DNA of 49,094 nucleotides from contig JAFRTL010000014.1 in the NCBI GenBank assembly GCA_017427065.1, positions 1-49,094 of the forward strand. Reading direction: 5' to 3'. Below the pieces are notes generated by a model, which worked only from the letters and a program-made list of their open reading frames with translations, ran no database searches and was not told where the DNA came from. Source of the DNA: Bacteroidaceae bacterium. GTDB taxonomy: Bacteria > Bacteroidota > Bacteroidia > Bacteroidales > Bacteroidaceae. Within the stretch, counting starts at the first letter, position 1. The number at the start of each line of letters is the position of its first letter. The translations under genes were made by a program, and so were the position numbers. Below, in pieces: positions 23,409 through 38,928 of the stretch.

Positions 23409-23428
23409 TCTAACACGTTTTATTACTG

Positions 23429-23436
23429 CAAAGATA
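23429..23436 (-). promoter_or_regulatory. Bacteroidetes -7 element for the LRR-M64 gene
   Basis: TATCTTTG on the minus strand, 20 bases ahead of GTG 23408. It rules out the ATG codons at 23462 and 23468, which would lie upstream of the transcript start. Confidence 0.5.
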
Positions 23437-23562
23437 GTAAACTTTTGGAAGAAACTCCACATACACATTCTAGATGCTGAAAAAAGAGGTTAAGTTGGTT
23501 TTTTATATAAACTCCGAATGGAAAAAAATCTTTCGTTTTTTTATACTATGCTGTTTTTTATT

Positions 23563-23617: not shown

Positions 23618-26600
23618 ATGAAAAGAACTGCCCCTCTGTCTAAATCCCAATATGGGATTTATGTTGAATGTGCCAACCATCAAGGCGAATCTTGTTACAA
23701 TCTACCTTATATTTATATATTAGATCATAGTCTGGATGCCACACGCTTGTGTCGTGCCATAGAGACGGCTGTCATGGCTCATCCTACCCTCTTCACGCGC
23801 ATCAGCCTCAGCGATGATGGGGAACCCATGCAGAGCATCGACGAGCACGAATCTTTCAGTATCACTGTGGAAGAAATCGCAGACTTTGACTCAGTGAGAC
23901 AGAGCTTGGTCACTCCGTATGATATCTTCAAGGACCGTCTTTTCCGTATCCGCCTGTTTGACGATGGGGCCAACTTTTATCTCTTCATCGACTACCATCA
24001 CCTGATAGCTGATGGGACCTCCATGCAGCTGATGCTGAACGACATTGACCGGGCTTGCCATGGACAACCCCTAGAACCGGAAATGCGAACCATGATGGAG
24101 CAAGTTCTGGTGGAGCAGGACATACGACAAAGCAAAGCCTTCGAGGAAGATAAACAATGGTATGCCCAAAACTTCGACTGTGCAGACACCTATACGCCAT
24201 TACAACCTGATCTGGAAAGCACTGAGCATAGCGAGGACAGCCTTGTTCGCATACTGAGTATAGACACGCATAGTGTGGATGATTTCTGTCACAGCAATGA
24301 CGTTTTCCGCAGTACACTATTCACCGCAGCTTATTCCTACCTGCTAGCGAAGTATAACAATGAGCAGGAATCGCTCTTTACCACCGTCTATAATGGACGA
24401 GAGGACAAAGCGCTGAGTCGTACAGTTGGTATGTTTGTAAAGACGCTCCCCGTCTTTGCAAAGTTCGATGCTGACACCACTGTGCTGGACTACCTGAAGA
24501 ATAGCCAAGAGCAAATGCGGGGTTGCCGCAAGCATAGCAGCTATTCTTTCATGGACTTGCAACAAGATTTGCAGTTGCAGTCCAACACTTCGTTTGCTTG
24601 GCATGCCAACCTATTTGCTAACGACAGGATGATGGATAAACCTATGCGTACCATTCGCATAGGAAACAGTACGACAGGTGTATCGCTGTACATCAAAGCG
24701 TTCATCCACGACGGACACTATCACATCAAGGCTGAATATGCCTCTAACGAGTATTCGGAATCATTGATAAAGAACTTCCTGGAAAGCTACGAAGCCATAC
24801 TGAAGGGCTTCCTCACACAAAAGAAGCTGAGTGACATAGAACTGGTAACCACCCAGCAAATAGAAACGTTGGACAATTTCAACCTTACTGATAGTGCGTA
24901 TGATGACCAGCAGACTGTGGTTTCACTGTTCAGACAGCAGGCAGCAAACACTCCAGACAAGATCGCTGTAGTTTATGAAGATAAACAATATACCTACGCA
25001 GAAGTGAATGAACTGAGCGACCGCATCGCTGCCTATATTGCTGGCAAAGGTCTGGGAGCTGAGGATGTGGTTTCGATACTGATTCCTCGCTGCGAGTGGA
25101 TGGCCATCGCTTCACTGGGAGTGCTGAAAGCAGGTTGTGCCTACCAGCCGTTGGATCCCACCTATCCAAAGGAACGTCTTTCCTTTATGATGGAAGATGC
25201 AAAGGCTAGCCTACTGATAGCCGATAACGACCTTTTCCATCTGGTAAGCGATTATCAGGGGGAGGTACTTTTTACACATGATCTGACTGCACTGCCTGCA
25301 GCGCAGTCGATCCCTGAAGGTCCTGCCTCTCATAGCTTGTTTAGTTTGCTGTACACCTCTGGTTCGACCGGGGTGCCCAAGGGTTGCCAAATAGAACAAC
25401 GCAATGTAGTAGCTTTCTGCCACATGCACTGCCTGATGCATGACATCATTGCTGACAGTCGGGTAGCTGCCTATGCCAGCTTCGGGTTCGATGCCTCGCT
25501 GATGGAGATCTACAGTACTCTGACGATTGGTGCACAGCTTTTCATTATACCTGAGGAAATCAGACTGGACCTGGTAGCATTGAACGACTTTTTCGAACAG
25601 CACAGCATCACCCATGTGTTCATGACCACCCAGGTAGCTTACCAGTTTGCCACCAACTTCGAGAACCACTCGCTGCGTCATTTGTTGACGGGTGGTGAGA
25701 AATTACCGACATTGGTACCTCCTTCCAGCTATGTGGTAAGCAACGGTTATGGACCATCGGAGTCTATCTGTTACGTAACCAACTACAACGTAACCAAGCA
25801 ACTGAAAAACATTCCAATAGGCAAGGCTGTGCCCAACATGAAGTGCTACATCACTGATAAGAACGGACATCGCTTGCCGATAGGTGCTGCAGGAGAGCTT
25901 TGGGTGGCTGGTCCACAGGTAACTCGTGGATACCTGAATCGCCCGGAGAAAACTGCAGAGTCTTTCATCGATAATCCGTTTACTAACGAGGAGAAACATA
26001 ACCGTATCTATCGCACAGGCGACATCGTACGCTATCTGCCTTCGGGCGACATAGACTTCGTGGGACGTCGTGACGGACAAGTCAAGATTCGTGGTTTCCG
26101 CATCGAATTGAAAGAAATAGAAGCGATTATCCGTGAGTTCCCTGGTATTAAGGATGTGACTGTACAAGCTTTCGAAGAGAACGGTGGTGGTAAGTTTATC
26201 GCAGCTTACGTGGTGAGCGATGACAAAGTGGACATCGAAGCCATGAACCAGTTTATCATTGAGGAGAAACCACCTTATATGGTGCCTGCCGTGACCATCC
26301 AGATAGAGGCCATCCCACTGAACCAGAATGGAAAGGTGAACAAACGTGCTCTGCCGATTCCTGAGAAAAAAGCTGCTGCTAAGGAGACGGAAACCAATGT
26401 ACCTATGAACGTGCTGGAAAAGGAACTCCACGCACTGATAGCCGACATCGTGAACACGAAGGACTTCGGTGTGACGACCGTTCTGGGATACGTGGGACTG
26501 ACTTCCATCTCTTCTATCAAATTGGCTGTTCAAATCAACAAGCGCTATGGAGTGACTTTAGACTCCAAATCATTGGTGAAGAACGGTACCCTCCAAAGTA

Positions 26601-29600
26601 TCGAGAATGAGATAATAGCCTCACTGCTCAGCAAGAAGGAGGAACCTGCCAACGCGGTGGGCAACCAGACGGGTGCGAAACCTGAGACAACCTATGCTCC
26701 GCTGTCTTATGCCCAGACGGGTGTCTACTTCGAGTGTCTGAAAAACCCCACATCGACCATCTACAATATCCCTTATCTGCTGACCTACCCTGCAGGTACT
26801 GATACAGAGCGTCTAGCCGATGTAGTGAAGAAAATAGTAGAGAGCCATCCGGAACTCCACGTCCACTTTACCACTAAGGGGGATGCCATCATACAGACGA
26901 TGGAAGAAGCGGTGCCTGTAGAGGTGCCCATCACCAAGATGACTGATGAGCAACTGGCTCCTTACAAGAACGACTTTGTTCGACCTTTCAACCTGCAAAA
27001 GCCTCCACTCTATCGTTTTGAGGTGGTAGAGACAGAAAGCGCTGTACACTTACTGGTTGATATTCATCATCTGGTATTCGATGGTGGTTCTGCCGATTTG
27101 CTTATCCGCCAGATAAACAGTGCCCTTGAAGATGCAGCTATCGAGAAGGAGCACTATACGTACCTTGACTTCGTGACTGACCAGCAGAAAGCGGAGGACA
27201 CAGAGACCTTCCGCGCTGCTCAACAGTTCTTCGCCGAGAGGTTGCAGACGTGTGAGGGTGCCAGCGAGATACCTGCTGACCTGCCTAAAACAGATAATCA
27301 AGGTTTTATCGGTGAAGCAGTCTGCCTGCCCGACTATGATAGAGCCAACGCCTTCTGCCGTCAACATGAAATCACTCCAGCTCACCTCTTTCTCGCTGCT
27401 ACTGCTTACGTGGTATCCCGCTATATCAACAACCGTGAGGTATATCTCTGCACGGTGAGTAACGGACGCTCTAACCTGAAGATTGCCGATACGGTAGGTA
27501 TGTTTGTCAACACGCTGGCCTTAGGGCTCAATATTGACGACGTAAGCGTAGCAGAGTTCCTGCGTCGGACCAGTGAGACCTTTGATGAAACTCTACGCCA
27601 TGAGGACTATCCATTCGTACGTATTGCCACCGACTATGGATTCCGTCCTGCCATCGCTTATGCTTATCAAGTGGGGGTATTGTCTGAATACACCGTAGAT
27701 GGGAAACCTGTGGAGCAAGAACTCTTGGAACTGAACGTGCCAAAGTTCAAGATCAATATAAAGATAGAATCACGTGGCGTCGTGGTACAATACGATGATG
27801 CGGTTTACTCTGAACGACTCGCCACGTCGCTGGCCGAGAGTATCGTAACAGTAGCCAAGCATATGATGGAGCAGCCAGAAGCGAATGTACGTAAGCTCTC
27901 TATCGTCAGTCCACAACAGGAAGAGGAACTCTCCCATCTGCGCCAGACGGCCACAGGAAAAGCACCATTCAAGTTCTTCCACGACTGCATCCATCACTTT
28001 GCAACGCAGACACCCGACAAGGAGGCCTTGATCGCTGTCGATGCTGCCTATACTTATAAAGAGATGGATGAAATGACCAATCGCATCGCTACAGCGCTCC
28101 GCAGCCGTGGGGTACGTGAACACGACCGTGTAGCACTGCTCCTGCCACGTACCAGCCGACTGATTCTCTCGCTTTTCGGAGTGCTGAAATCGGGTGCTGC
28201 GTATATTCCTTGTGACCCGGAATATCCAGCTGACCGCATCCGACTTATCTTGGAAGACAGCGAAGCACGGTACATCATCACCACAGCCGACCGTCTAGAC
28301 AGTGTTCCTGCCGATAAGGCCATCGATGTAGAGACCTTGCTGACTGCAGAAACAGGAACGTTCATTGCTCCTCAGATTACGCCGGATGCCCTTGCTTACC
28401 TTATCTATACGTCGGGATCGACCGGTAGGCCCAAGGGGGTGATGCTGCGTCATGAGGGTATCTGCAACTACCTCTACGGACATCCTGCGAATGTCTTTGC
28501 CAACGCGGTGCTGACGGATGCTGACCGCGTGCTCAGTGTGACGACGATTTCGTTCGATGCCGCCCTGCAGGACATCGGTATGGCCTACTACAACGGAAAG
28601 ACACTGATAGTAGCCACAGAGGAACAGGCCAACAATCCGCTGGACTTGGCACGACTGATCCATGACCAACGCATCACGATGGTTTCTGGTACGCCTTCTC
28701 GCTGGCAGACATGGCTCACGAGCGACGATTTCTGTAACGCCATAGCCCATGTGCGTATCTGCCGTGCCGGTGGTGAGAAGTTCTCCGACCAACTGCTTGC
28801 TCAGATGCGTAGCGTGACCAAAGCGCGTATCTTCAACTGTTATGGACCGACGGAAATCACCGTAGCTTCTAACAATAAGGAATTGACGCATGCGGAGGTG
28901 GTCACTGTGGGCAAGCCTCAACTGAATGTCAAGGAATTCATTGTGGATACCGATGGCAACGAACTGCCTGTAGGTGTGGTGGGTGAACTGTATATCGGTG
29001 GTCGTGGAGTGGCTCGTGGCTACAATAATCTGGACGATATGACCCGTGAACGTTTCATCGATTATCATGGCGAACGTATCTATAAGTCGGGCGACTATGC
29101 CAAGTGGTTGCCCGACGGGGATGTGGTGATTCTGGGACGTACCGACCACCAGATCAAGCTACGCGGTCTTCGCATCGAACTGGGTGAGATAGAGAACGTG
29201 ATGCTGAAAGTAGAGGGTATGAAGAAGGTGGTAATCCTTATCCGACAGTTGGGTGGAAAGGAACACCTCTGCGCCTACTTCACTGCAGAGCGTGAGATTG
29301 CCATAGATGCACTGAAGACAGAAATATCGAAGAGCTTGACGCAATACATGGTGCCTACTGCCTATCTTCAGCTGAAGGAGATGCCTATGACACCGAATGG
29401 TAAAACAGACGTCAAAGCCCTACCAGAACCGCAGCTAGCTTTCAACTCTGCCTACACGGCTCCTGTCAACGACACGGAACGTGCTTTCTGTGATATTTTT
29501 GCCAAGATACTTCAGATGGACAAGGTGGGTGCTACCGACAATTTCTTCGAATTAGGAGGAACCTCACTTGTGGTCACCCGTGTCATCATCGAAGCTGATA

Positions 29601-30874
29601 AAGCCGGACTGCATGTAGCCTATGGGGATGTGTTTGTCAACCCGACTCCTCGTAAGCTGGCGTTGCTTATCACAGGAAGCTCGGAGGACGATGAGACCAG
29701 CGAAGTAGCCTACTTTGACTATACTGACATTGATACCCTTTTACAACTGAATAAGCTCGAGGTATTCCGTAAGGGAGAATGTCACCAACTGGGCAATGTC
29801 CTGCTCACAGGTTCGACAGGATATTTAGGAATCCACATCCTGCGTCGACTCATCGAGTCGGATGCGCAGAACATCTACTGTCTGGTACGCGGTAAGACTG
29901 TAGAAGCCGCTGAAAGCCGCCTACGCACATTGCTCTTCTATTATTTTGCCAATGCTTACCGTCCTCTCTTCGGGAAGCGCCTTCACGTGGTGACAGGTGA
30001 CGTCACAGGAGATTTCGGTCAAGGACTTCAGGTGGATACCGTCTTCAATTGTGCTGCCATCGTGAAACACTTCAGTAAGGGAACAGAGATTGAGGACATC
30101 AACATCGGTGGTGCCCAACGCTGTGTGGACTACTGCTTAGAGCATGGAGCACGTTTGGTGCATATCTCTACAGCCAGTACGCGCGGTCTGTGGGTTGGGG
30201 AACCTAAAGAGGAAGTCTACACCGAGCAACGTCTCTACATGGGGCAGTTCCTTGGCAATAAGTACATCTATTCTAAGTATATGGCCGAGCGACTGATTCT
30301 CGATGCTGTGGCCCATAAGGGATTGAAAGCGAAGATCATGCGTGTAGGTAACCTGTCGGCGCGCTCTACCGATGGTGAGTTCCAAGCCAACTTCTCTACC
30401 AACTCGTTCATGGGACGCATCAAGGTTTACAACATGCTGGGGTGCTGCCCATACAGCATGCGCAACAAGACCGTGGAATTCTCACCCATCAATGAAGTGT
30501 CTAATGCCATCGTGCTGCTGGCCTCTACACCCGACCAGTGCACGGTATTCCATCCATACAACATACACACGCAGTTCCTGGGAGATGTGCTCATGGGACT
30601 GTCAGCCGTAAGTGAGGGCATACGATTCGTGGAGCAAGAGGAGTTTATGGAAGCAATGGATAAAGCCAAGGCCGATCCACAGAAAGCCAAGCAGCTGTCT
30701 AGCCTGCTGGCCTACCAAGATGTAGCTCATGGACAGAAGACTACCGATGTGAGCCGTGATAACAACTATACCACTCAGGTGCTCTACCGACTGGGATTCA
30801 GCTGGTCGCCTACCTCTTGGGACTATGTGGAACGAATGCTTACTGCCATCGGCGGCTTCGGATTCTTTGAGTAG
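23618..30874 (+). CDS. Two-module NRPS with C-terminal reductase (C-A-PCP-C-A-PCP-R)
   Basis: A 2418-residue cytoplasmic synthetase. C1 (about 5-430) has H127-H-L-I-A-D-G. A1 (about 432-910) has Y-T-S-G-S-T-G from 579 and Lys906. PCP1 carries G-L-T-S963. C2 (about 1027-1440) has H1150-H-L-V-F-D-G. A2 (about 1452-1930) has Y-T-S-G-S-T-G from 1597 and Lys1929. PCP2 carries L-G-G-T-S1983. The thioester reductase (about 2055-2418) has T2064-G-S-T-G-Y-L-G and Y2216-x3-K2220. All key residues are intact. Reductive release gives a peptide aldehyde or alcohol. The leading C domain implies acylation of the first residue, probably from the ligase next door. Specificity-pocket readings by eye: A1 D-A-M-F-L-G-G-C-Y-K (suggests an aliphatic side chain), A2 D-A-Q-S-C-A-C-V-A-K (no clear match). 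ATG 23618 chosen over TTG 23609. Confidence 0.95.
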   Translation: MKRTAPLSKSQYGIYVECANHQGESCYNLPYIYILDHSLDATRLCRAIETAVMAHPTLFTRISLSDDGEPMQSIDEHESFSITVEEIADFDSVRQSLVTPYDIFKDRLFRIRLFDDGANFYLFIDYHHLIADGTSMQLMLNDIDRACHGQPLEPEMRTMMEQVLVEQDIRQSKAFEEDKQWYAQNFDCADTYTPLQPDLESTEHSEDSLVRILSIDTHSVDDFCHSNDVFRSTLFTAAYSYLLAKYNNEQESLFTTVYNGREDKALSRTVGMFVKTLPVFAKFDADTTVLDYLKNSQEQMRGCRKHSSYSFMDLQQDLQLQSNTSFAWHANLFANDRMMDKPMRTIRIGNSTTGVSLYIKAFIHDGHYHIKAEYASNEYSESLIKNFLESYEAILKGFLTQKKLSDIELVTTQQIETLDNFNLTDSAYDDQQTVVSLFRQQAANTPDKIAVVYEDKQYTYAEVNELSDRIAAYIAGKGLGAEDVVSILIPRCEWMAIASLGVLKAGCAYQPLDPTYPKERLSFMMEDAKASLLIADNDLFHLVSDYQGEVLFTHDLTALPAAQSIPEGPASHSLFSLLYTSGSTGVPKGCQIEQRNVVAFCHMHCLMHDIIADSRVAAYASFGFDASLMEIYSTLTIGAQLFIIPEEIRLDLVALNDFFEQHSITHVFMTTQVAYQFATNFENHSLRHLLTGGEKLPTLVPPSSYVVSNGYGPSESICYVTNYNVTKQLKNIPIGKAVPNMKCYITDKNGHRLPIGAAGELWVAGPQVTRGYLNRPEKTAESFIDNPFTNEEKHNRIYRTGDIVRYLPSGDIDFVGRRDGQVKIRGFRIELKEIEAIIREFPGIKDVTVQAFEENGGGKFIAAYVVSDDKVDIEAMNQFIIEEKPPYMVPAVTIQIEAIPLNQNGKVNKRALPIPEKKAAAKETETNVPMNVLEKELHALIADIVNTKDFGVTTVLGYVGLTSISSIKLAVQINKRYGVTLDSKSLVKNGTLQSIENEIIASLLSKKEEPANAVGNQTGAKPETTYAPLSYAQTGVYFECLKNPTSTIYNIPYLLTYPAGTDTERLADVVKKIVESHPELHVHFTTKGDAIIQTMEEAVPVEVPITKMTDEQLAPYKNDFVRPFNLQKPPLYRFEVVETESAVHLLVDIHHLVFDGGSADLLIRQINSALEDAAIEKEHYTYLDFVTDQQKAEDTETFRAAQQFFAERLQTCEGASEIPADLPKTDNQGFIGEAVCLPDYDRANAFCRQHEITPAHLFLAATAYVVSRYINNREVYLCTVSNGRSNLKIADTVGMFVNTLALGLNIDDVSVAEFLRRTSETFDETLRHEDYPFVRIATDYGFRPAIAYAYQVGVLSEYTVDGKPVEQELLELNVPKFKINIKIESRGVVVQYDDAVYSERLATSLAESIVTVAKHMMEQPEANVRKLSIVSPQQEEELSHLRQTATGKAPFKFFHDCIHHFATQTPDKEALIAVDAAYTYKEMDEMTNRIATALRSRGVREHDRVALLLPRTSRLILSLFGVLKSGAAYIPCDPEYPADRIRLILEDSEARYIITTADRLDSVPADKAIDVETLLTAETGTFIAPQITPDALAYLIYTSGSTGRPKGVMLRHEGICNYLYGHPANVFANAVLTDADRVLSVTTISFDAALQDIGMAYYNGKTLIVATEEQANNPLDLARLIHDQRITMVSGTPSRWQTWLTSDDFCNAIAHVRICRAGGEKFSDQLLAQMRSVTKARIFNCYGPTEITVASNNKELTHAEVVTVGKPQLNVKEFIVDTDGNELPVGVVGELYIGGRGVARGYNNLDDMTRERFIDYHGERIYKSGDYAKWLPDGDVVILGRTDHQIKLRGLRIELGEIENVMLKVEGMKKVVILIRQLGGKEHLCAYFTAEREIAIDALKTEISKSLTQYMVPTAYLQLKEMPMTPNGKTDVKALPEPQLAFNSAYTAPVNDTERAFCDIFAKILQMDKVGATDNFFELGGTSLVVTRVIIEADKAGLHVAYGDVFVNPTPRKLALLITGSSEDDETSEVAYFDYTDIDTLLQLNKLEVFRKGECHQLGNVLLTGSTGYLGIHILRRLIESDAQNIYCLVRGKTVEAAESRLRTLLFYYFANAYRPLFGKRLHVVTGDVTGDFGQGLQVDTVFNCAAIVKHFSKGTEIEDINIGGAQRCVDYCLEHGARLVHISTASTRGLWVGEPKEEVYTEQRLYMGQFLGNKYIYSKYMAERLILDAVAHKGLKAKIMRVGNLSARSTDGEFQANFSTNSFMGRIKVYNMLGCCPYSMRNKTVEFSPINEVSNAIVLLASTPDQCTVFHPYNIHTQFLGDVLMGLSAVSEGIRFVEQEEFMEAMDKAKADPQKAKQLSSLLAYQDVAHGQKTTDVSRDNNYTTQVLYRLGFSWSPTSWDYVERMLTAIGGFGFFE

Positions 30875-30914
30875 AGCCAAATAAATAAGATATAACGATT
30901 AAATAAGATAATCG

Positions 30915-32258
30915 ATGAAGACGATAGAATTGGAAGAGGCCAGACGCCTCGTAGCTGAAGGGGGAAAGTTGCCCGAATCAGAACGACTGAAATTACAACA
31001 GCAACGACTGCGTGAGTTGGTGGGATACGCCCGTACCCACTCACCCTACTTTGCGAAGCTCTATGAAAATATACCCGACGATTTCAAACTTACTGCCCTT
31101 CCCTTCACTGAGAAGCCAACGTTGCTAGCCCATTATGACGACTGGGTGACCGACCGACGACTACACCTGCAAGATGTGCTCAACTATGTGAACCGCGACC
31201 CCATGAAGAATCAAAGCCGCCTGTTGGGTGACTATACCGCAATCCGTACATCAGGGTCTACGGGTAATCCGTTGCCAATGGTGCGCGATGATTATCACAA
31301 TAAAATACACGGTCAGCTGGTTGCGCAACGCTTGTTGACCGGAGCCGATCCTAATTTGATGGATATCTCCAAGCATCGCCGTGCCTCCATCATCCACCTC
31401 TCCAATGGAGCGTCCAGCTATGGTGCCTTCCTGCGCATGAAAGCAGCTCATCCAGAAAGTGCAGATAACCTACTGGGAATCTCTGTGCTCGAATCGGTAG
31501 ATAGCATCGTGGCCAAGCTCAACGACTTCCAGCCTGAGTCCATGGCTGGCTATCCGTCGATGATGGTACAACTGGCTGTAGAGCAGCTGCAGGGGCGACT
31601 GCATATCTCTCCGAAACACCTCATTACCTCTGCAGAGATGCTGTCGGAGAAGAATCATGCCCTCCTTAAGCAAGCCTTCCAGTGTCCTGTGGGAAATAAC
31701 TATTGCATGACAGAAGGCGGAGAGATAGCGATGACGCACGACTGCCCGCACCTGCACATCAATGACGACTGGATCATCGTGGAACCCGTGAATAAGGATA
31801 TGCAGCCTCTCGGCATGAGCGACGAGTGGTCGGAAGGTATCCTGGTTACCGACCTCAGCAACTATGTGCAACCTATCATCCGCTACTATGTGAGTGATGT
31901 TATCCGCATCAAGCCCTCTACCTTCGATTGCTGCCAGCTACCTATCATGCAGATAAAAGGCCGTACGTTCAGCAGCTACACCATCTGCGGAAAGACGTTC
32001 AATATCGTTGGTATCTTTGCCAAATCTGAAGTATGGCCCGACTTGGTCAGCTTCCAGTTCGTACAGACCGACAGTGAGACGATCGAGGTACGTGGTGTAT
32101 GCAAAAGTGCCCCTGAGCAAGTGCTCCCACCGCTCTGCGAACACCTGAAGGATTTCCTTGCCCAACAAGGTTGCCCCGATGCCCGTTTCGTCTGGTCTAC
32201 AGAACCGTTCATACCCAATAAGCAGGGGGGTAAGATTCCTATCTATGTGAAACTTTAA
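30915..32258 (+). CDS. Acyl-adenylating enzyme, PaaK/CapK-like
   Basis: A 447-residue adenylate-forming enzyme of the phenylacetate-CoA ligase / CapK group. The ATP loop is I-R-T-S-G-S-T-G-N-P near residue 113. An aromatic/acid-site region with N-Y-C-M-T-E-G-G-E follows near 265, then the ribose-binding D-L-S-N-Y-V-Q-P-I-I-R-Y segment, and a small C-terminal lid. It starts 40 bases after the NRPS and 11 bases before the MATE gene, so the three form one operon. I infer that it activates a carboxylic acid as a CoA or adenylate that the first C domain of the NRPS condenses onto residue one. CapK-like proteins also act in cell-surface biosynthesis, so this link rests on position. Confidence 0.8.
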   Translation: MKTIELEEARRLVAEGGKLPESERLKLQQQRLRELVGYARTHSPYFAKLYENIPDDFKLTALPFTEKPTLLAHYDDWVTDRRLHLQDVLNYVNRDPMKNQSRLLGDYTAIRTSGSTGNPLPMVRDDYHNKIHGQLVAQRLLTGADPNLMDISKHRRASIIHLSNGASSYGAFLRMKAAHPESADNLLGISVLESVDSIVAKLNDFQPESMAGYPSMMVQLAVEQLQGRLHISPKHLITSAEMLSEKNHALLKQAFQCPVGNNYCMTEGGEIAMTHDCPHLHINDDWIIVEPVNKDMQPLGMSDEWSEGILVTDLSNYVQPIIRYYVSDVIRIKPSTFDCCQLPIMQIKGRTFSSYTICGKTFNIVGIFAKSEVWPDLVSFQFVQTDSETIEVRGVCKSAPEQVLPPLCEHLKDFLAQQGCPDARFVWSTEPFIPNKQGGKIPIYVKL

Positions 32259-32269
32259 CTGGCCTGATT

Positions 32270-33613
32270 ATGAAAAACGAAGAGCGTAAAGAACTGACGA
32301 CCCTTTTCTGGAGATACCTCTGGTCATCCATCCTCATCACTCTTTCTGGATGCTTGGGCAATGTGGTAGATGGCATCATCGTAGGGAAACTGATTGGTGC
32401 AGATGGTGTCAGTGCCATCAATCTTTCCAAACCTGTCGTGCAGTTGATGATGACGCTGAGCCTATTGATAGCTGCGGGTGGCAGCATGTTGGTGGGATTT
32501 ACGTTGGGAAAGATGGAGCTCGTTCGCACACGTTATGTCTATACACATTCCATGCTTAGCAACTTCCTCCTCAGTCTGCTGTTCACATTTGTGGGTATAG
32601 TCCTGCCACTCTCTGTGGCCAACCTGCTGTGCGACAACGAGCATCTGTTGCAGCCTACGTTGGAGTACCTTCAACCCATGCTCCTCGGTGCTCCAGCCTA
32701 TATGATGATGTGGGCCATCAGCCTGATGATCAGTGTTGACAGTAGTCCTCGGTTGGCTTCCATTGCTATCATTGTCGATAATGTGGTCAACCTCAGCTTT
32801 GATATCATCTTCATCCAACTGTGCGGATGGGGTATCGAAGGTTCGTCTACGGCTACGGTCGTTGGTCATTTAGTAGGTATCGCTATCATGTTGCTACACT
32901 ATCGCAATGCCGACAACCACTTACGCTTTTCACTCAAGCACGAGCAGCCAGAAGGCATGAATATCCTTTCTCAAGGCACCCCTCTTGCTTTGGCATCAGT
33001 GTGTCTCACGGTGTTACTGTTTTCAGCCAACAGTATCGTATTGTCTTCCCTCGGACGTACGGGCATCTTTATCTTCGCCGTATGTATGAACCTTTTGCAG
33101 ATATACAACCTTTTCTGTGCAGGAACCTGCAGAACCCTTCAGTCACTAGGTGCTATACAGGTAGGCAAAGGCGATAATGAAGCTTTCCTGCTCGTCATAC
33201 ACAAGGCTTTCCGTTTCATCACGATTTCCATGCTGATTACCTGTGTCTTCGCGTGGATCTTCCCATCTGTAATAGCACGTCTTTTCGGAGCAACCGACGA
33301 GGCTACGATAGCTGAGTGCAACCGCGCCCTGCGCATCTTTGCACTCAGTTTCATACCATTCTGCTACATCTATGTACTGATGATTGTCTATAAGCTCTAC
33401 GGACAGCACCGCATGGCACTGTTTATCTCTGTGGTGCTCTCACTAGCAGTCATCCCTGTGCTGTGGCTTATAGCGCGTATGGCTCCCGAATACTTATGGT
33501 ATAGCTACCTGCTAGCTTATCTCATTGAGGGTATAGCCATCTACGTGCTACATAAAGCTTTTCACGTAAAGTTTGAAATAGCCACGGGAGACCAGACTAC
33601 CACTTCGACATGA
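32270..33613 (+). CDS. MATE-family efflux transporter
   Basis: A 447-residue, twelve-helix MATE protein, moving organic compounds out against Na+ or H+. The first helix carries the typical N-V-V-D-G-I-I-V-G-K-L-I-G-A-D-G-V-S-A-I-N pattern, and the two halves are recognisably repeated (second half from about 235). It is the last gene of the NRPS operon, 11 bases after the ligase, and is the obvious export route for the product and for self-protection. Its 3' end overlaps the convergent barrel-protein gene by 17 bases, with no terminator between them. Confidence 0.88.
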   Translation: MKNEERKELTTLFWRYLWSSILITLSGCLGNVVDGIIVGKLIGADGVSAINLSKPVVQLMMTLSLLIAAGGSMLVGFTLGKMELVRTRYVYTHSMLSNFLLSLLFTFVGIVLPLSVANLLCDNEHLLQPTLEYLQPMLLGAPAYMMMWAISLMISVDSSPRLASIAIIVDNVVNLSFDIIFIQLCGWGIEGSSTATVVGHLVGIAIMLLHYRNADNHLRFSLKHEQPEGMNILSQGTPLALASVCLTVLLFSANSIVLSSLGRTGIFIFAVCMNLLQIYNLFCAGTCRTLQSLGAIQVGKGDNEAFLLVIHKAFRFITISMLITCVFAWIFPSVIARLFGATDEATIAECNRALRIFALSFIPFCYIYVLMIVYKLYGQHRMALFISVVLSLAVIPVLWLIARMAPEYLWYSYLLAYLIEGIAIYVLHKAFHVKFEIATGDQTTTST

Positions 33614-34955
33614 ATGCACTCGGTGAGATAGAGACCATTAGCCATGCCCAATGCAGTTTGTGCTTCTCAGACGTGTGCTTCAGTACCTCCATAGTCTTCG
33701 TGCCACCCATGAAAGAGTAGCCCAGAGTGAGTTTCGACTCCTTAGTAAGCGCATAGGATGCCGTGACATCAATTTCATGACCAAGCGGTTTATCGGCATT
33801 CCTCAGATGGGCTGTTGTCGCCAGGAAATGGTAGGAGGCATCGAAAGACAAAGCAGTATTTGGTGTCCATGTTCCTCCCACATAGAGGTTCTGCAAACCT
33901 GGCGAGAAACCATTGCGGTAAGCACTTACATAGAAAAAGTCCATAGCCCCGTAGAACTGATGATGAGAGCCATAGACTGTGGTGAAACCACGCATCTTAT
34001 CATGCCTGATCAATCCGATGTCTCCTCCCCCTGGTGTAGCAAAATTCTCATCACCACTTAGGTAGTCGTAACCAGCATTGATACGATAATGAGAAGAAGG
34101 AGAATATCCCACTTTCACACTGGCCATCCAGGCTTTGATAGGAATAGCATTAGTGAACATTTCCTCTTCGTTGAATACCTTTTCCACATATTTACCCATC
34201 TGACGGTAGTAGGAAGCTTCAAACGACCAATGAGACGGTTTAAATGACAGGAATCCACCAATCAGTTGCTGAGATTTTGTGACGGGGTTATTCTCACTTC
34301 CCCCTTGCATACCAACGTTCATAAAGAGCAGGGAGGCGCCCAAGGGAATGTCTTTAATGTCGAAATGATACCAGGCCGTCTGCATGGTTTTGTAGGGTTG
34401 TGCACCACCCGTATAGTAGTTGCCCCCATTCACATTCTCAGGGTTCTGGTTGTATGCCAGCATCACATGAAACTTCTGATGATGACCTTCATAGCCTAGT
34501 TTCAGCACATCGTGTGAAGAAGCCGCCATAGCCCAGTCGTTGGAACCGATGATGCGTTCGTCATCGTAAGCCAGCTCCTGTCGGCCGATCTTCGCAAAAA
34601 GTCCGTTTTTCGACTTCAGCTGCGCCCAAGCCTCATAAATGTTGAACGCTCCCTGACTGCTCTGTCCCCAGATGCCAGAATGCTGTGCCACGATCTTGGC
34701 TTCCAGTCCTTTCTGAGCGAAGTCGAGTGTCAGACGGGCACGCTCTGTGATGAAATTAGAACGCTTTTCTCTTTCGTGCTCGCTATTCGATTGCTTTAAA
34801 GGGAGTCCGCCATAGCGCAGCTCACCGCGAGAGAGCAGCGAACCCGTGAGCGAGAAGGTATGTTCCGTCTCCTCTTGAGCCTGCAGACAAAGTGGCAGCA
34901 TCAGCATAGCGCCCAGCCATAAGGCATGTGTCCATAGTTTTCTAAGGTTTTTCAT
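33597..34955 (-). CDS. Outer-membrane beta-barrel, alginate-export-like
   Basis: A 452-residue protein with a signal peptide (M-K-N-L-R-K-L ... L-C-L-Q-A-Q, about 25 residues) and then alternating amphipathic strands to the end, closing with an aromatic terminal residue (S-K-W) as barrels do. The block F-A-K-I-G-R-Q-E-L-A-Y-D-D-E-R-I-I-G-S-N-D-W near residue 130 is characteristic of the alginate export (AlgE-like) family; alginate itself need not be the substrate. ATG 34955 is chosen over the longer frame because it starts the signal peptide. It is the last gene of the PPTase-SpoIIE-STAS operon and could be the outer-membrane exit for the NRPS product, which is inference. Confidence 0.8.
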   Translation of the reverse strand: MKNLRKLWTHALWLGAMLMLPLCLQAQEETEHTFSLTGSLLSRGELRYGGLPLKQSNSEHEREKRSNFITERARLTLDFAQKGLEAKIVAQHSGIWGQSSQGAFNIYEAWAQLKSKNGLFAKIGRQELAYDDERIIGSNDWAMAASSHDVLKLGYEGHHQKFHVMLAYNQNPENVNGGNYYTGGAQPYKTMQTAWYHFDIKDIPLGASLLFMNVGMQGGSENNPVTKSQQLIGGFLSFKPSHWSFEASYYRQMGKYVEKVFNEEEMFTNAIPIKAWMASVKVGYSPSSHYRINAGYDYLSGDENFATPGGGDIGLIRHDKMRGFTTVYGSHHQFYGAMDFFYVSAYRNGFSPGLQNLYVGGTWTPNTALSFDASYHFLATTAHLRNADKPLGHEIDVTASYALTKESKLTLGYSFMGGTKTMEVLKHTSEKHKLHWAWLMVSISPSAFMSKW

Positions 34956-34974
34956 GGAAATAGCGATTATAAGG

Positions 34975-35283
34975 TTATGCCTGTTCAAACTCAAACAATT
35001 CTACGAAGCCCGTCATCTTGAACACGCTCATGATGTCTTCATTGACGTTCTTCAGCACCATACGATGACCGCTGGCCTTTACCTTTTTCAGGATGGCCAA
35101 TAAGATACGCAGACCACTGGATGCAATGTATTCCAGGGTGGTACAGTCCATCACGATATCCTTCTCGTTGTTCTCATAGAGGGGCTTCAAGGCAGCCTCC
35201 ACCTCGGCAGCAGCGGCGGTATCCAGTTCTCCATCGAGCACAGCCACCAGGCATCCATCGATTTCTTCAATTTTAGTATTCAT
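34975..35283 (-). CDS. STAS-domain anti-sigma factor antagonist
   Basis: A 102-residue single STAS domain of the SpoIIAA/RsbV type. The phospho-acceptor loop is plain: I-V-M-D-C-T-T-L-E-Y-I-A-S-S-G-L-R, with Ser in S-S-G-L. In partner switching the kinase partner phosphorylates this Ser and a PP2C phosphatase removes it; the unphosphorylated form sequesters the kinase/anti-sigma protein. Both activities are supplied by the gene four bases upstream, in which the phosphatase and an RsbW-like ATPase are fused. No sigma-B-like factor lies nearby, so the regulated target is not evident. Confidence 0.9.
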   Translation of the reverse strand: MNTKIEEIDGCLVAVLDGELDTAAAAEVEAALKPLYENNEKDIVMDCTTLEYIASSGLRILLAILKKVKASGHRMVLKNVNEDIMSVFKMTGFVELFEFEQA

Positions 35284-35287
35284 GTTT

Positions 35288-37507
35288 TTATATTTTAAGA
35301 TTATCTATATTTTTCCACATAGTCAGCACATTCTTCCCTTCGAAGCGCTCATAGTTGATTACATCCATCAAGTTGCGTACCAGGAAGATACCCAGTCCGC
35401 CGATGGGTCGGTCTTCTACCGAGAGGGTAGTATCAGCCCTCATCACATCAGTAGGAGCGAAAGACATTCCCTGATCCGTGAGGGTATAGCGCAGTCGGTC
35501 AGCTGTCACGTCCACGTCGATGGTCATCTCTCCCTCTGTTCCTGGAGGATAGGCATAGTCCATCACGTTTACCACCGCCTCTTCCACGGCCAATCGCAAA
35601 CTCATACCCAAGCTTGGGTCGATCTCCAACGACAGGTTGACGTCCTTGATAAAGTCATTCAGCGTCTTCACCGCTTTCACGTCGTTCTTCAAGGTGAGCG
35701 ACCGATGCATCAGGACTTCCTCCGTCTGTGGTGTATAGGTCAGTGCCATCAGCGTCACATCATCGCTCTGCGTCGCATGCTGCACAAATTGGCGTGCACG
35801 CTCCACCATGTCCTCTATCAGCACCTTTGGTGTCGTACGTTTCTTTTGTCGGCTCTCCTCGACGGCAGTCATCACACGTTTCAAGGTAAACTGGCGATGC
35901 TTCACATCCATCGCTTCAGTCAGTCCGTCGGTATAGAGGAAAAGCGTATCCCCAGCCTTGAGCTTGTCTTCCTGTGTCACGTAAATGTAGTCCATCACAC
36001 CGAGTGGGAGGTGTGGCTTGGCAGGCAGTGTCCTCACCTCATCGGGACTGATAATGATCGGGCGGTCGTGCCCTGCGTTGCAGTAACGCAATCGACCGGT
36101 TGGAAGGTCGAGCACCCCCACGAAGAAGGTGACGAACATACCCGACTCGTTTCCTTGGCAGATATACTCATTGAGGTTCTGCATGATGACCGACGGGTTG
36201 GTCTGATGAGAGGCAAAAGTACGGAAAAGCGAGTGTACCACCGCCATCACCAGGGCCGACGGCATACCCTTTCCACTCACGTCACCGATGCAGAAGAACA
36301 ACTTCTCATCGCGTATGAAGAAGTCGTACAGGTCACCATCCACCTCCTTCGCAGGGTCAAGCCAGCCATACAGGTCGATGTCATTGCGCTCTGGGAATGG
36401 CGGAAACACTTTCGGCAACATGTCCATCTGTATCTTGCTGGCCACCCGCAATTCACTGGAATAGCGTTCCTTCTCGATGGTGGTTTCCTGCAGATGCTTC
36501 ATACTCTTCACCGCTCTGTAGATGATGAAGCCCAACAACGCCAGACCGAGCAGCATCAGCAAAGACATTTTCTTACGCATGTCTATCAGGTTGGCATAAA
36601 TCTCATCATCATAGTTCACCACTGCCACTTGCCAACGATTCGGGTGTCTGATGGTACCAAAGAACACATAGCCGTCAGCGTGGTCTTCCCAGTCCTTGAA
36701 AGCCACCACCTTCACACGAGTGGTATCTTTCACGGCCCCCTCCTGCAATTTCACGTTCAGCAGGCGCACCGCCTCGTCCAGGTCTCTCTGCTTCACTTTG
36801 CCCGGCTCAGGTCCACTGATGAGCTGTCCGTCGGTCGTGAGCAGGAGGTCGAACGATGAGGGATAGAGCCTTCTGGAGTTCAACGTACGCCCTAGCCAGT
36901 CCACCGAAACATCTATCTGCAAGACAGCCACCACACGGCCATCAGCATCGTGCAGCGGATGGATATAGGTGGTAAGCATCATCTGCGCACCATCGACATC
37001 CATATAGGGATCGCACCAGTAAGCTGAATCGGCTTCTATGGCAGCATTGTAGAGGGCAGAAGTGGTATAATCGTGCGTCTCGGAGGCCACCTGCATGGTC
37101 TCTATCCTTCCATCCTGTCGGCGAGTGGAGTAAGGTTCGTAGAGCCGTCCTTTAGAGGGGAAATAGTCGGGGATGAATGCCAATCCACAGCCCGTTATGT
37201 CTGGGTTGTCTTCCACGAAACGGCGCGTCAGATCCATGTAGAAGTCGGGGGCGTTCAGTCCTTGTTCAGCCTCCCAACGACGGTTGGCCGTCGCAACCTC
37301 CACGGTGTTCAGTATGGCACGTATGTTCTGAGCCTTAATCACCAACTCATTCTCAGCATCGCGACTTAACTCGTTACGCACCTCATCACGTGTATAGTAG
37401 TACTGCATGGCCGAAATCAACTCCATGAGTGCTGCTGCCGCGAGGATGATGATCACTCCCGTACGTCCATTGAGTGTACCCAACCACTTCTTCAGATTCT
37501 CCAGCAT
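35288..37507 (-). CDS. SpoIIE-type PP2C phosphatase fused to sensor and RsbW-like ATPase
   Basis: A 739-residue membrane signalling protein. TM1 (about 15-35) and TM2 (about 312-333) flank a periplasmic Cache-like sensor. The PP2C/SpoIIE domain (about 355-590) shows the metal-binding acidic motifs: E-V-D-G-D-L-Y-D-F near 390, G-D-V-S-G-K-G near 408, Y-T-D-G-L-T-E near 524 and S-D-D-V-T near 583. A C-terminal GHKL ATPase domain (about 600-739: L-A-V-E-E-A-V-V-N-V-M-D-Y-A-Y, G-G-L-G-I-F-L-V) resembles the RsbW/SpoIIAB anti-sigma kinases. One polypeptide thus holds sensor, phosphatase and kinase, with its STAS substrate four bases downstream. It follows the PPTase gene by 15 bases. Confidence 0.9.
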   Translation of the reverse strand: MLENLKKWLGTLNGRTGVIIILAAAALMELISAMQYYYTRDEVRNELSRDAENELVIKAQNIRAILNTVEVATANRRWEAEQGLNAPDFYMDLTRRFVEDNPDITGCGLAFIPDYFPSKGRLYEPYSTRRQDGRIETMQVASETHDYTTSALYNAAIEADSAYWCDPYMDVDGAQMMLTTYIHPLHDADGRVVAVLQIDVSVDWLGRTLNSRRLYPSSFDLLLTTDGQLISGPEPGKVKQRDLDEAVRLLNVKLQEGAVKDTTRVKVVAFKDWEDHADGYVFFGTIRHPNRWQVAVVNYDDEIYANLIDMRKKMSLLMLLGLALLGFIIYRAVKSMKHLQETTIEKERYSSELRVASKIQMDMLPKVFPPFPERNDIDLYGWLDPAKEVDGDLYDFFIRDEKLFFCIGDVSGKGMPSALVMAVVHSLFRTFASHQTNPSVIMQNLNEYICQGNESGMFVTFFVGVLDLPTGRLRYCNAGHDRPIIISPDEVRTLPAKPHLPLGVMDYIYVTQEDKLKAGDTLFLYTDGLTEAMDVKHRQFTLKRVMTAVEESRQKKRTTPKVLIEDMVERARQFVQHATQSDDVTLMALTYTPQTEEVLMHRSLTLKNDVKAVKTLNDFIKDVNLSLEIDPSLGMSLRLAVEEAVVNVMDYAYPPGTEGEMTIDVDVTADRLRYTLTDQGMSFAPTDVMRADTTLSVEDRPIGGLGIFLVRNLMDVINYERFEGKNVLTMWKNIDNLKI

Positions 37508-37522
37508 TCCTTAAATCATCTA

Positions 37523-38083
37523 TTATTCATAGTAACAAACCGTCCACACATAGTCATTCTCCAGACACACCTCAGTATGGTTCCAGGTGCCGCTCATATC
37601 CAAATCCTTCATCGCATTGCTGATGCCCTGTCCTGTAAGTTTCAAGAAAGCCTCCTTTTGCGTCCAGCGCTTGATGAACTCCACATCGGGCCGCTCCGCC
37701 TGCTTCACCTCTTGGAGGTCGGCCTCGTTCAGCACATAGGCAGCCAACTCCTCTTTGTAAGAACGAATGCTCTCTATGTCGATGCCCACAGGTCGGTCGC
37801 TCACTGCACACGCCACCGCCATGCGGCAATGGCTCAGACTGAAGTGAATGTCTGGATGCGCCTTGAGGGTGGGTTTCCCATGCTCCCCGAAGACCAGCTC
37901 CTGTGGCTCCGTGATGCCATATTCTTCCTCCAGTGCCCTTTGTAACAGTCTGTAAGCCGCCACTGACTGTCGCCTCCCTGCCTCATGATGGAAGCGTAGG
38001 GCTTTCTCACGACGCTGCGCAGAGACCTGTGTCAGCGCCTGATTTAAGTCCATATCTTCTATATGGTCGTCAATGTAAATCAC
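37523..38083 (-). CDS. Sfp-type 4'-phosphopantetheinyl transferase
   Basis: About 186 residues. It transfers phosphopantetheine from CoA to the Ser of carrier proteins, here presumably the two NRPS PCP domains. Motifs: F-S-L-S-H-C; V-G-I-D102-I-E104 (metal-binding acids); and the W-T-Q-K143-E144-A-F-L-K-L-T-G-Q-G signature. GTG 38083 (giving M-I-Y-I-D-D-H) is my preferred start; ATG 38053 is the alternative. The open frame upstream runs into the tRNA-His terminator and cannot be coding. First gene of the minus-strand operon PPTase-SpoIIE-STAS-barrel. It could also serve the housekeeping acyl carrier protein. Confidence 0.85.
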   Translation of the reverse strand: MIYIDDHIEDMDLNQALTQVSAQRREKALRFHHEAGRRQSVAAYRLLQRALEEEYGITEPQELVFGEHGKPTLKAHPDIHFSLSHCRMAVACAVSDRPVGIDIESIRSYKEELAAYVLNEADLQEVKQAERPDVEFIKRWTQKEAFLKLTGQGISNAMKDLDMSGTWNHTEVCLENDYVWTVCYYE

Positions 38084-38112
38084 AAACTTCAGTCTAACTT
38101 CTTTTAAAGGTG

Positions 38113-38120
38113 TAAAGATA
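38113..38120 (-). promoter_or_regulatory. Candidate -7 element for the PPTase operon
   Basis: TATCTTTA on the minus strand (one mismatch to TAnnTTTG), 29 bases ahead of GTG 38083 and downstream of the tRNA-His terminator. This gives the PPTase operon its own promoter. Confidence 0.35.
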
Positions 38121-38161
38121 GTAAAAATAGAATATTTACAAGAAAAAACTATAAAAAAAGA

Positions 38162-38191
38162 AAAGACCTTGCAAAAACTTGCAAGGTCTTT
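38162..38191 (-). terminator. Terminator of tRNA-His
   Basis: AAAGACCTTGCAA pairs perfectly with TTGCAAGGTCTTT around a four-base loop. On the minus strand it is followed by TTTTCTTTTTTT, giving a strong intrinsic terminator just after the tRNA. Confidence 0.85.
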
Positions 38192-38197
38192 GGAAAG

Positions 38198-38272
38198 GGT
38201 GCCCAGTCGGACTCGAACCGACGACATTCAGAACCACAATCTGACGCTCTAACCAACTGAACTATGGGCACC
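38198..38272 (-). tRNA. tRNA-His (GTG anticodon)
   Basis: Cloverleaf on the minus strand: acceptor GTGCCCA with TGGGCAC, plus the extra G-1 paired with C73 that defines tRNA-His; anticodon stem TCAGA/TCTGA with loop TTGTGGT (anticodon GTG); T-arm GTCGGTTCGAGTCCGAC. CCA is not encoded. Confidence 0.96.
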
Positions 38273-38300
38273 ATGTGTGCTCCTCTCTCGAAAAGCGATG

Positions 38301-38331
38301 CAAATATAGGGCTTCTATTTGAATCTGCCAA
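38301..38331 (-). promoter_or_regulatory. Bacteroidetes promoter of tRNA-His
   Basis: On the minus strand, TTG at 38331-38329, 20 bases, then TATATTTG at 38308-38301. Good spacing for a -33/-7 pair, 28 bases ahead of the tRNA. Confidence 0.5.
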
Positions 38332-38361
38332 CTATTTTCTAAAAAAAAACTAGAATGTAGC

Positions 38362-38928
38362 TTATTTCACCTCAACACGGTGACGAAAGATGTCTGATAG
38401 CGACTGCATGAACACCTGCCGATGATCATTGAGAGTCTTAAGCAGCGATGCCTGTAAAGCGGAGTCGATCCCTTTCTGACCTTCCAACTCGAAACCGTCA
38501 CGCTTAGCCGTAAAGAGGGCGATACCATCTTCACTTACAGCATAGATGCGCGCATTGCCCACCATGTTATGGTCTAAGTAATAGCAAGCTGGACCTTCGC
38601 AAAACAGATTGGTGACATTTATTGGAAGAGAGAGAGAGGACTGGTCAGCTAAAGTGACCATGGAAGTGTTCATGGAACTGTTCAGGGCACTTTCTTCTTT
38701 CATATTCTTAGTAAGGAAATAGAGGGAGAAGACTGTCACCGCAATAGCAGCAGTCAAACCAAGCCACCGCTTTAGGGTTTGTTCCCTACCCTGTTGCTTG
38801 AGACGTAACACTGCTTGAGGCAGACGAGCTTCCAACTGCTCCCAACTTGCTTCGGGAAGCACCTCCTCATAGTCGTCCAGCTTATCTCTGAAGTGTAACC
38901 AAGGTTCTTGATTTTCTTTAGCTCTCAT
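38362..38928 (-). CDS. Membrane anti-sigma-like protein
   Basis: A 188-residue protein with a cytoplasmic helical N-terminus (about 1-52: W-L-H-F-R-D-K-L-D-D-Y-E-E ... W-E-Q-L-E-A-R-L), a single membrane helix (about 55-72) and a periplasmic C-terminal part with two Cys. I see no named domain. Its start overlaps the stop of an ECF sigma gene by four bases (ATGA), and this layout (short cytoplasmic region, one membrane pass, periplasmic domain) is that of ECF anti-sigma factors. The function is inferred from position and topology only. Confidence 0.6.
   Translation of the reverse strand: MRAKENQEPWLHFRDKLDDYEEVLPEASWEQLEARLPQAVLRLKQQGREQTLKRWLGLTAAIAVTVFSLYFLTKNMKEESALNSSMNTSMVTLADQSSLSLPINVTNLFCEGPACYYLDHNMVGNARIYAVSEDGIALFTAKRDGFELEGQKGIDSALQASLLKTLNDHRQVFMQSLSDIFRHRVEVK

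Follow-up and report, generated by a model that had tools for sequence, protein, structure and literature searches.

Does a nonribosomal peptide synthetase (NRPS) that ends in a reductase domain form a unit with the signalling and export genes around it in a Bacteroidales genome, and what would such a unit make? The question is raised by a stretch of 49,094 nucleotides (the window), positions 1 to 49,094 of contig JAFRTL010000014.1 from a Bacteroidaceae bacterium (GenBank assembly GCA_017427065.1; 2.5 Mb, 83% complete). A sequence-only reading of this stretch had described a self-contained locus of seven genes, and the observation of that seven-gene locus is confirmed. At its core the locus is a real unit; the idea is only partly new, the core having been printed in 2010 for Methanobrevibacter ruminantium. 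We consider it probable that the whole is an NRPS cassette with reductive release that is gated by a signal and equipped for export, and that it would give an N-capped dipeptide aldehyde. The product, its export and its regulation are what we infer from the genes.

Organization of the locus

An open reading frame (ORF) check bore out the genes and strands first described: all seven ORFs are open and intact, with uncertain starts for the barrel and 4'-phosphopantetheinyl transferase (PPTase) genes. The forward run consists of the NRPS, a PaaK-like ligase and a MATE exporter, and the reverse run, in reading order, of the PPTase, a Cache-SpoIIE-kinase fusion, a STAS protein and an outer-membrane barrel. 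The two runs converge, and their stop ends overlap by 17 bases. The features are as follows (C, condensation; A, adenylation; PCP, peptidyl carrier protein; R, reductase; aa, amino acids).

23618-30874, forward: two-module NRPS, 2418 aa, C-A-PCP-C-A-PCP-R (Pfam Condensation twice, AMP-binding twice, PP-binding twice, NAD_binding_4)
about 23618-24892, 24905-26377 and 26378-26662, forward: NRPS domains C1, A1 and PCP1
about 26690-27937, 27971-29437, 29438-29707 and 29780-30871, forward: NRPS domains C2, A2, PCP2 and R
23978-26137, forward: NRPS stretch of residues ~121-840, covering most of C1 and the A1 core, apparently replaced by recombination when compared with the sister genome
30915-32258, forward: PaaK/F390-synthetase-like adenylate-forming ligase, 447 aa, an optional part (TIGR02304, below cut-off)
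32270-33613, forward: MATE family exporter (Pfam MatE, 87 bits)
33597-34955, reverse: outer-membrane barrel of the Alginate_exp family (Pfam PF13372); start uncertain, with longer forms from 34967 or 34994 possible
34975-35283, reverse: STAS anti-sigma-factor-antagonist-like protein, 102 aa (Pfam STAS; TIGR00377 above cut-off)
35288-37507, reverse: membrane-bound fusion of Cache/PDC sensor, SpoIIE (PP2C-type) phosphatase and RsbW-like kinase, 739 aa (Pfam Cache/PDC, SpoIIE, HATPase_c_2)
37523-38083, reverse: Sfp/AusB-like PPTase with a GTG start, start uncertain (Pfam ACPS)

Conservation of the neighbourhood

We scanned genomes with the NRPS alignment, one genome per species, using two peptide patterns. 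This yielded 28 loci, i.e. 23 from close relatives (49-85% identity over the best segment) and five distant ones (27-29%). The close relatives are uncultured Bacteroidales or Bacteroidetes: eight have a named ruminant host (yak, water buffalo, deer or goat), 10 carry RUG names, which we take to denote rumen genomes, and five (UBA2739, UBA4361 and three SRR bins) name no host. Near the NRPS of these 23, STAS was found in 23/23, SpoIIE in 22/23, the barrel in 22/23, MATE in 19/23, the PPTase in 11/23 and the ligase in 3/23. The SpoIIE and barrel misses fall in the same locus (L038), which is cut by the contig start. SpoIIE, STAS, barrel and NRPS follow one another on one strand in 17 of the 23, with MATE next in 14 of these 17, and gaps within the cassette are often -14 to +30 bases, which is operon-like. 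The convergent layout is seen only in the window and in L034, a sister genome from yak omasum; in L052, STAS has moved to the operon end yet is retained. Flanking gene families outside the cassette are common to at most 3/24 loci, mostly sister pairs (antisense ORFs left aside). Because the same core is present in relatives with other genomic surroundings, it appears to be one inherited unit and not a chance neighbourhood. For each of the seven genes, comparison of the window with its sister gives a whole-gene dN/dS within 0.06-0.13, and these low values together with the recurrence in other genomes argue for an association beyond chance.

Since the two-pattern scan favours close relatives, the test was repeated without it, using a profile of PCP2-R (threshold E <= 1e-60; own genome counted at each level, one-module enzymes included). 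The profile matched 55/399 family genomes (13/30 genera), 2/158 genomes in the own genus and 8/393 in the order. An NRPS of this type is thus rare in its own genus, but the earlier suggestion that it is unusual in this class of bacteria did not hold, considering the 55 family genomes and the 934 NRPS clusters that a survey counts in rumen Bacteroidaceae (PMC8241843). We searched 57 regions, from all 54 other matching family genomes, with the profile of each cassette gene, and kept loci with 3.9 kb or more in view upstream and no fewer than 350 bases downstream: 27/29 two-module, 7/17 short, 5/6 long and 2/5 cut or split (classes set by ORF length, the short class including pieces cut by contig ends). 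The 27 uncut two-module loci contain SpoIIE in 23 cases, STAS in 24, the barrel in 16, MATE in 15, the PPTase in seven and the ligase in four; one of the 27 repeats an earlier locus, without which SpoIIE is at 22/26. By comparison, none of the seven one-module R-terminated loci has any other cassette gene (two of them, checked by Pfam, are both C-A-PCP-R). The difference between two-module and one-module loci gives Fisher p values of 6e-5 for SpoIIE and 2e-5 for STAS, relatedness ignored. SpoIIE and STAS also accompany the longer NRPSs in 3/5 loci.

At the order level, L112 has the whole set except the ligase, L111 has NRPS-SpoIIE-STAS-PPTase, and the distant L114 (NRPS 32% identical) has NRPS-STAS-SpoIIE-PPTase. 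No SpoIIE or STAS was in view in L113, L115, L116 and L117, which are contig-cut or visible on one side only. As a separate observation, in L202 (3566-15277) a one-module C-A-PCP-R NRPS lies directly after the two-module NRPS according to Pfam, and L214 has a pair of the same sizes.

Could the regulatory genes nevertheless be mere accidental neighbours of the NRPS? The SpoIIE family is not cassette-specific, as the source genome encodes at least two further SpoIIE-type proteins (G000:C2:84520-86736 and G000:C16:20733-22505) and the SpoIIE profile matches 23/99 genus genomes (own and partial matches included). Yet the 23/27 versus 0/7 distribution of SpoIIE, the differing surroundings, the distances shared among cassette genes (see below) and the archaeal precedent make an accident highly improbable. 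Among the ORFs picked around the two further SpoIIE-type genes, there was no NRPS or STAS match. In sum, the proposed neighbourhood comparison upheld SpoIIE, STAS and the barrel in most close relatives, and SpoIIE plus STAS family-wide; the barrel fell to 16/27 in two-module loci.

A conserved unit with probably exchangeable parts

The picture of seven genes travelling together had to be given up, owing to the counts for ligase, PPTase and barrel above, a convergent layout confined to the window and L034, and a different history of the MATE gene. Pairwise distances were analysed in 17/24 loci (leaving out L038, L040, L042, L044, L047, L048 and L060). Those of SpoIIE, STAS, barrel, C2 and R agree (r 0.71-0.90), whereas MATE (r 0.10-0.47) and the A1 core (0.10-0.42) deviate, and C1 (0.13-0.73) and A2 (0.12-0.57) are intermediate. 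This pattern indicates that the history of the MATE differs from that of the rest of the cassette. The conserved unit would be SpoIIE, STAS and the two-module NRPS, to which barrel, MATE, ligase and PPTase would be exchangeable attachments.

The ligase scores below cut-off both for Pfam AMP-binding (19.7 versus 29.9 bits) and for TIGR02304 (96 versus 251.9 bits), and the solved structures closest to it in sequence are those of PaaK-type ligases. Because all ligase-linked MATEs (8/8) fall in one clade of 10 among 40 MATEs (clade support 0.695; hypergeometric p 6e-7, relatedness ignored), the ligase and that MATE type seem to move together.

Exchange would also have reached into the NRPS, with the C1-A1 region swapped by recombination. 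Between the window and L034, the proportion of synonymous differences (pS) is 0.58-0.98 in NRPS residues 121-840 and 0.18-0.65 elsewhere; synonymous divergence (dS) is 1.35-2.8 in C1, A1N and the A1 core versus 0.43-0.53 in A1C, C2, A2 and R, PCP2 also being high (1.32). Because dS is high there even though the two genomes share flanking genes at 78-99% protein identity, recombination has probably replaced the stretch that runs from C1 to the end of the A1 core. In the A1 core, L035 is closer to the window (81%) than L034 is (64%). A plasmid search with the NRPS returned only matches below 60% identity. We also noted that two metagenome-assembled genomes (L040 ~11800-11869, L060 ~11728-11830) have the NRPS frame interrupted at nearly the same point of A1, which may reflect a true split, decay or an assembly error.

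For the PPTase, the best NCBIfam model is the AusB PPTase (75 versus a cut-off of 225 bits), and no second PPTase was detected in the 83% complete source genome. In a genus sample, 56/60 genomes have a PPTase match, 54 with one and two with two, and the window PPTase falls together with those of five genus relatives that have a single PPTase each and gave no NRPS match. Since the same class is the sole PPTase found both here and in these relatives, it probably serves housekeeping (fatty-acid synthesis) as well in the window's lineage. The "own activation" that had been ascribed to the locus, in the sense of a dedicated PPTase, was accordingly rejected as a firm claim. In the 16/23 cassette genomes searched for PPTases, those with a cluster-linked PPTase have two in 8/8 cases, and those lacking one have two full ones in 1/8, with a second weak fragment in another (Fisher p 0.0014; counts limited by incomplete genomes). 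Cluster PPTases thus appear usually to be extra copies.

An intact NRPS and its predicted product

The claim that every catalytic motif needed for a working assembly line is present found support in Pfam matches and in the alignment of C, carrier and reductase motifs. The HHxxxDG motifs of both C domains are intact (HHLIADG and HHLVFDG), the N-terminal Condensation match spanning residues 2-414, and so are the carrier serine sites (GLTS and GGTS) and the reductase motifs TGSTGYLG (TGxTGxLG) and YIYSK (YxxxK). These motifs are kept in every relative with readable residues (L040 and L060 lack C1 in the alignment, and L047 lacks A2 to R). The first carrier site, GLTS, is atypical, and its serine is present in 24/24 rows. 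Support is thus given to the proposal that the NRPS is an intact enzyme of the reductive-release type, linked to genes for signalling and export.

In the pathway that we propose, the PPTase would arm the carrier domains, and C1 would act as a starter C domain, attaching an acid to residue 1, the acid coming from the PaaK-like ligase where present and otherwise from the acyl pool of the cell. A1 and A2 would load two amino acids, and R would reduce the thioester by two electrons, so that the compound released would be an N-capped dipeptide aldehyde; this class is known to inhibit proteases. The Cache sensor would set the phosphatase/kinase balance on STAS, whose phosphorylation would turn the pathway on or off, and the product would pass the inner membrane via MATE and the outer membrane via the barrel. 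Aldehyde release is predicted from the reductase end and from the resemblance of R to solved NRPS reductases: the best is 6vtj (241.8 bits, E 1.5e-70), which we take to be an archaeal PCP-R structure (M. ruminantium protein; Deshpande 2021), followed by the AusA reductase 4f6c. An export role is supported by L114, in which no barrel or MATE match was found and TolC, HlyD and AcrB-type genes lie just upstream of NRPS-STAS-SpoIIE-PPTase. N-capping is suggested by the N-terminal C domain having no upstream module, by L111, in which an AMP-ligase and a PCP are fused in front of a 50%-identical NRPS, and by the link between an N-terminal C domain and N-acylation stated in Leahy 2010 (PMC2812497).

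Alternatively, C1 might not be a starter domain, and a free dipeptide aldehyde could give a pyrazinone or dihydropyrazinone as the product, as is the case with aureusimine. In keeping with this, the NRPS has AusA as its best NCBIfam model (1438 bits), and the AusA reductase is a solved relative of R. That score, however, is below the cut-off of 2500 bits, one relative (L111) has the fused acyl-loading module in front, and an acyl cap would block pyrazinone ring closure. Moreover, AusA is A-T-C-A-T-R (T, thiolation; PMC12153313), whereas the window NRPS has an N-terminal C domain with an intact motif. A pyrazinone is therefore unlikely in our view.

The predicted phosphorylation switch

Seven residues of the SpoIIE-kinase (D392, D409, G528, D582, D583, E643 and N647) are invariant in 23 rows, as is Ser55 of STAS in 24/24; we take all of these to be active residues, Ser55 corresponding to the serine that becomes phosphorylated in STAS relatives. 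Solved relatives of the SpoIIE-kinase are Cache-type sensors, Rv1364c (3ke6) and RsbW (6m36), and those of STAS are SpoIIAA-type antagonists. Because the PP2C and kinase residues and STAS Ser55 are invariant, a working phosphorylation switch is expected. Between the window and L034, pS in SpoIIE is higher in the phosphatase-kinase half (0.59-0.81, residues 301-720) than in the sensor half (0.39-0.57, residues 61-300), so the former may also have been exchanged.

What would the switch act on? In a classical partner switch, the RsbW-like kinase would hold a sigma factor encoded elsewhere, which the phosphatase-activated STAS would free for cassette transcription. We give this explanation a little less than an even chance. 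The STAS and kinase domains do match the SpoIIAA/RsbV and RsbW families, an extracytoplasmic function (ECF) sigma gene adjoins the PPTase (38925-39491), and Leahy 2010 proposed regulation of NRPS expression (PMC2812497). However, no sigma-factor-sized gene family outside the cassette is common to at least 3/24 loci (a distant sigma gene was not searched for), and the neighbouring ECF sigma gene recurs in 1/23 relatives' loci (L034). To our knowledge, archaea have no bacterial sigma factors. A module of the same kind is present in an archaeon (PMC2812497), which suggests that the switch may well have a target other than a sigma factor. Carrying this further, a sigma-free partner switch, in which STAS, set by the Cache-SpoIIE-kinase, acts directly on the NRPS or the exporter as post-translational gating, would operate in both an archaeon and Bacteroidales, the barrel being a Gram-negative attachment; we put this forward as speculation and think it rather unlikely. 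As to the signal, a rumen survey treats dCache_1 proteins as autoinducer-2 receptors, with SpoIIE among their output domains (PMC9540692), so autoinducer-2 sensing by the Cache domain is a lead only.

Evidence weighing against the proposed cassette

Several observations weigh against the signal-gated, exporting cassette. SpoIIE is absent from 4/27 two-module loci (L204, L216, L226 and L230) and 2/5 longer ones, and the five distant loci of the scan have no SpoIIE, STAS, barrel or MATE, their only other cassette gene being a PPTase in L061. The pocket codes, with positions that we assume from GrsA numbering, read DAMMLGGCYK for A1 and DAQSRGCVAK for A2; the two A domains thus differ, but neither code matches a nameable specificity, so no residues are predicted. 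The A1 code begins DAMM in 24/24 loci, and the A2 code is DAQSRGCVAK in 17/23 readable rows. The NRPSs of L036 and L041 are 93-100% alike in every domain and a ligase is present in L036 only (the MATE of which is of another type), which indicates that C1 as such can do without the ligase. The sensor half was kept where C1-A1 differs (window versus L034), contrary to a sensor that reads the N-terminal half of the product. Although Cache sensor and C1 distances have a partial correlation of 0.38 given R and PP2C (permutation p 0.002), correlations are also seen between sensor and C2 (0.30) and between barrel and C1 (0.25), operon position being a confounder. Since the swap between the window and L034 changed C1-A1 but kept the sensor, we do not claim that the sensor reads the product.

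The remaining points concern the barrel, which scores above the gathering threshold of Pfam PF13372 (55.3 versus 25.2 bits) and matches no solved structure by sequence at E <= 1. It is absent from 11/27 two-module family loci, and its family is wider than the cassette, with profile matches in 38/99 genus genomes. In four genus relatives in which no NRPS was found (L095 1892-5377, L096, L097 and L099), close barrel homologues lie beside an M3-type peptidase gene (Pfam Peptidase_M3 was tested in L095 only; the other three look similar), and these four nest among cassette barrels in a tree without support values. Hence the barrel could be a porin or uptake channel linked to the cassette, e.g. for peptide scavenging or product return, and not an exporter. 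This seems possible but doubtful to us, considering that the barrel is present in 22/23 close relatives, mostly within the operon, and has a distance pattern in common with SpoIIE and STAS. An export role of the barrel, as part of the proposed cassette, is what we prefer.

Surroundings of the locus

Two further features adjoin the PPTase operon.

38162-38191, reverse: intrinsic terminator-like hairpin (13 pairs, T run), between tRNA-His and the PPTase operon
38197-38271, reverse: tRNA-His

One candidate promoter motif of the Bacteroidales type, TAnnTTTG, lies 55 bases upstream of the NRPS start. A sigma-70 scan gave two promoter-like sites in 37900-38400 versus 0.5 expected, and no such site at the convergent junction. 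A foreign origin by base composition was considered and dropped because the GC signal is absent (cassette genes 0.48-0.53, window 0.478). A helix-turn-helix (HTH) gene and a BACON-LRR-Peptidase_M64 protein adjoin the NRPS start (20887-23468, reverse), and the ECF sigma gene, together with a 188-residue neighbour that has no Pfam family, lies beside the PPTase (38362-39491, reverse); among the 23 relatives' loci, both pairs are found only in L034. PADLOC gave no defence match for the NRPS, ligase, barrel, SpoIIE and neighbouring peptidase, the set submitted to that search (MATE, STAS and PPTase being outside it); the neighbouring HTH protein matches three HTH-type PADLOC models.

Significance and comparison with known systems

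What is added here is the spread of the set in ruminant-associated Bacteroidales, the barrel and the exchangeable parts. In the papers found, rumen Bacteroidales NRPS clusters are counted and not explained. Dimodular pyrazinone-type NRPSs were reported in 13/981 rumen genomes (PMC9540692), and a gene set of the window type is not described in the passages of that paper and of PMC8241843 that bear on it. No description of a Bacteroidales cassette was found in the open-licence literature (subscription papers were not covered). The cassette would link sensing and partner switching, in a way that can be tested, to products of the protease-inhibitor type in a protein-degrading ecosystem. Natural experiments are at hand in L036 (with ligase) versus L041 (without), and in the window versus L034 (different C1-A1).

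Like AusA/AusB of Staphylococcus aureus, which are the best NCBIfam models for both proteins, the window has two A domains, a reductase end and a cognate PPTase; unlike AusA, its NRPS has an N-terminal C domain, and both scores are below the equivalog cut-offs (1438/2500 and 75/225 bits). Like Rv1364c and RsbU/RsbW/RsbV, it combines sensor, phosphatase and RsbW kinase, here in one chain, with a STAS partner. It differs from those partner switches in that its STAS is separate and NRPS-linked and that no sigma partner was identified at the loci; Rv1364c also carries a STAS part. NRPS products of gut bacteria have been identified as dipeptide aldehydes (ruminopeptin of Ruminococcus bromii and the Guo 2017 family; PMC12327764), and PMC12153313 cites such an aldehyde as a protease inhibitor.

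The closest precedent is mru0066-mru0069 of M. ruminantium, in which two serine phosphatases, an anti-sigma factor antagonist and a MatE protein surround a two-module NRPS (Leahy 2010, PMC2812497). That NRPS is C-A-T-C-A-T, ending in a thioester reductase according to the legend of Fig. S8 and in a thioesterase according to the text, and has a full-length match in Syntrophomonas wolfei (swol1094); sensing, regulation and export were proposed for the set. Compared by description, the window has the same gene content at one locus, i.e. phosphatase, anti-sigma antagonist, C-A-T-C-A-T-R NRPS and MatE, and direct sequence comparison is limited to the R domain (6vtj, see above). The passages of Leahy 2010 on this set mention no outer-membrane barrel or PaaK-like ligase and are silent on the genes around swol1094, and the PPTase there belongs to a separate cluster (mru0514). 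Taken together, the cassette is the version found in Bacteroidales of a set first seen in a rumen methanogen, and it has an outer-membrane part and modules that can be exchanged.

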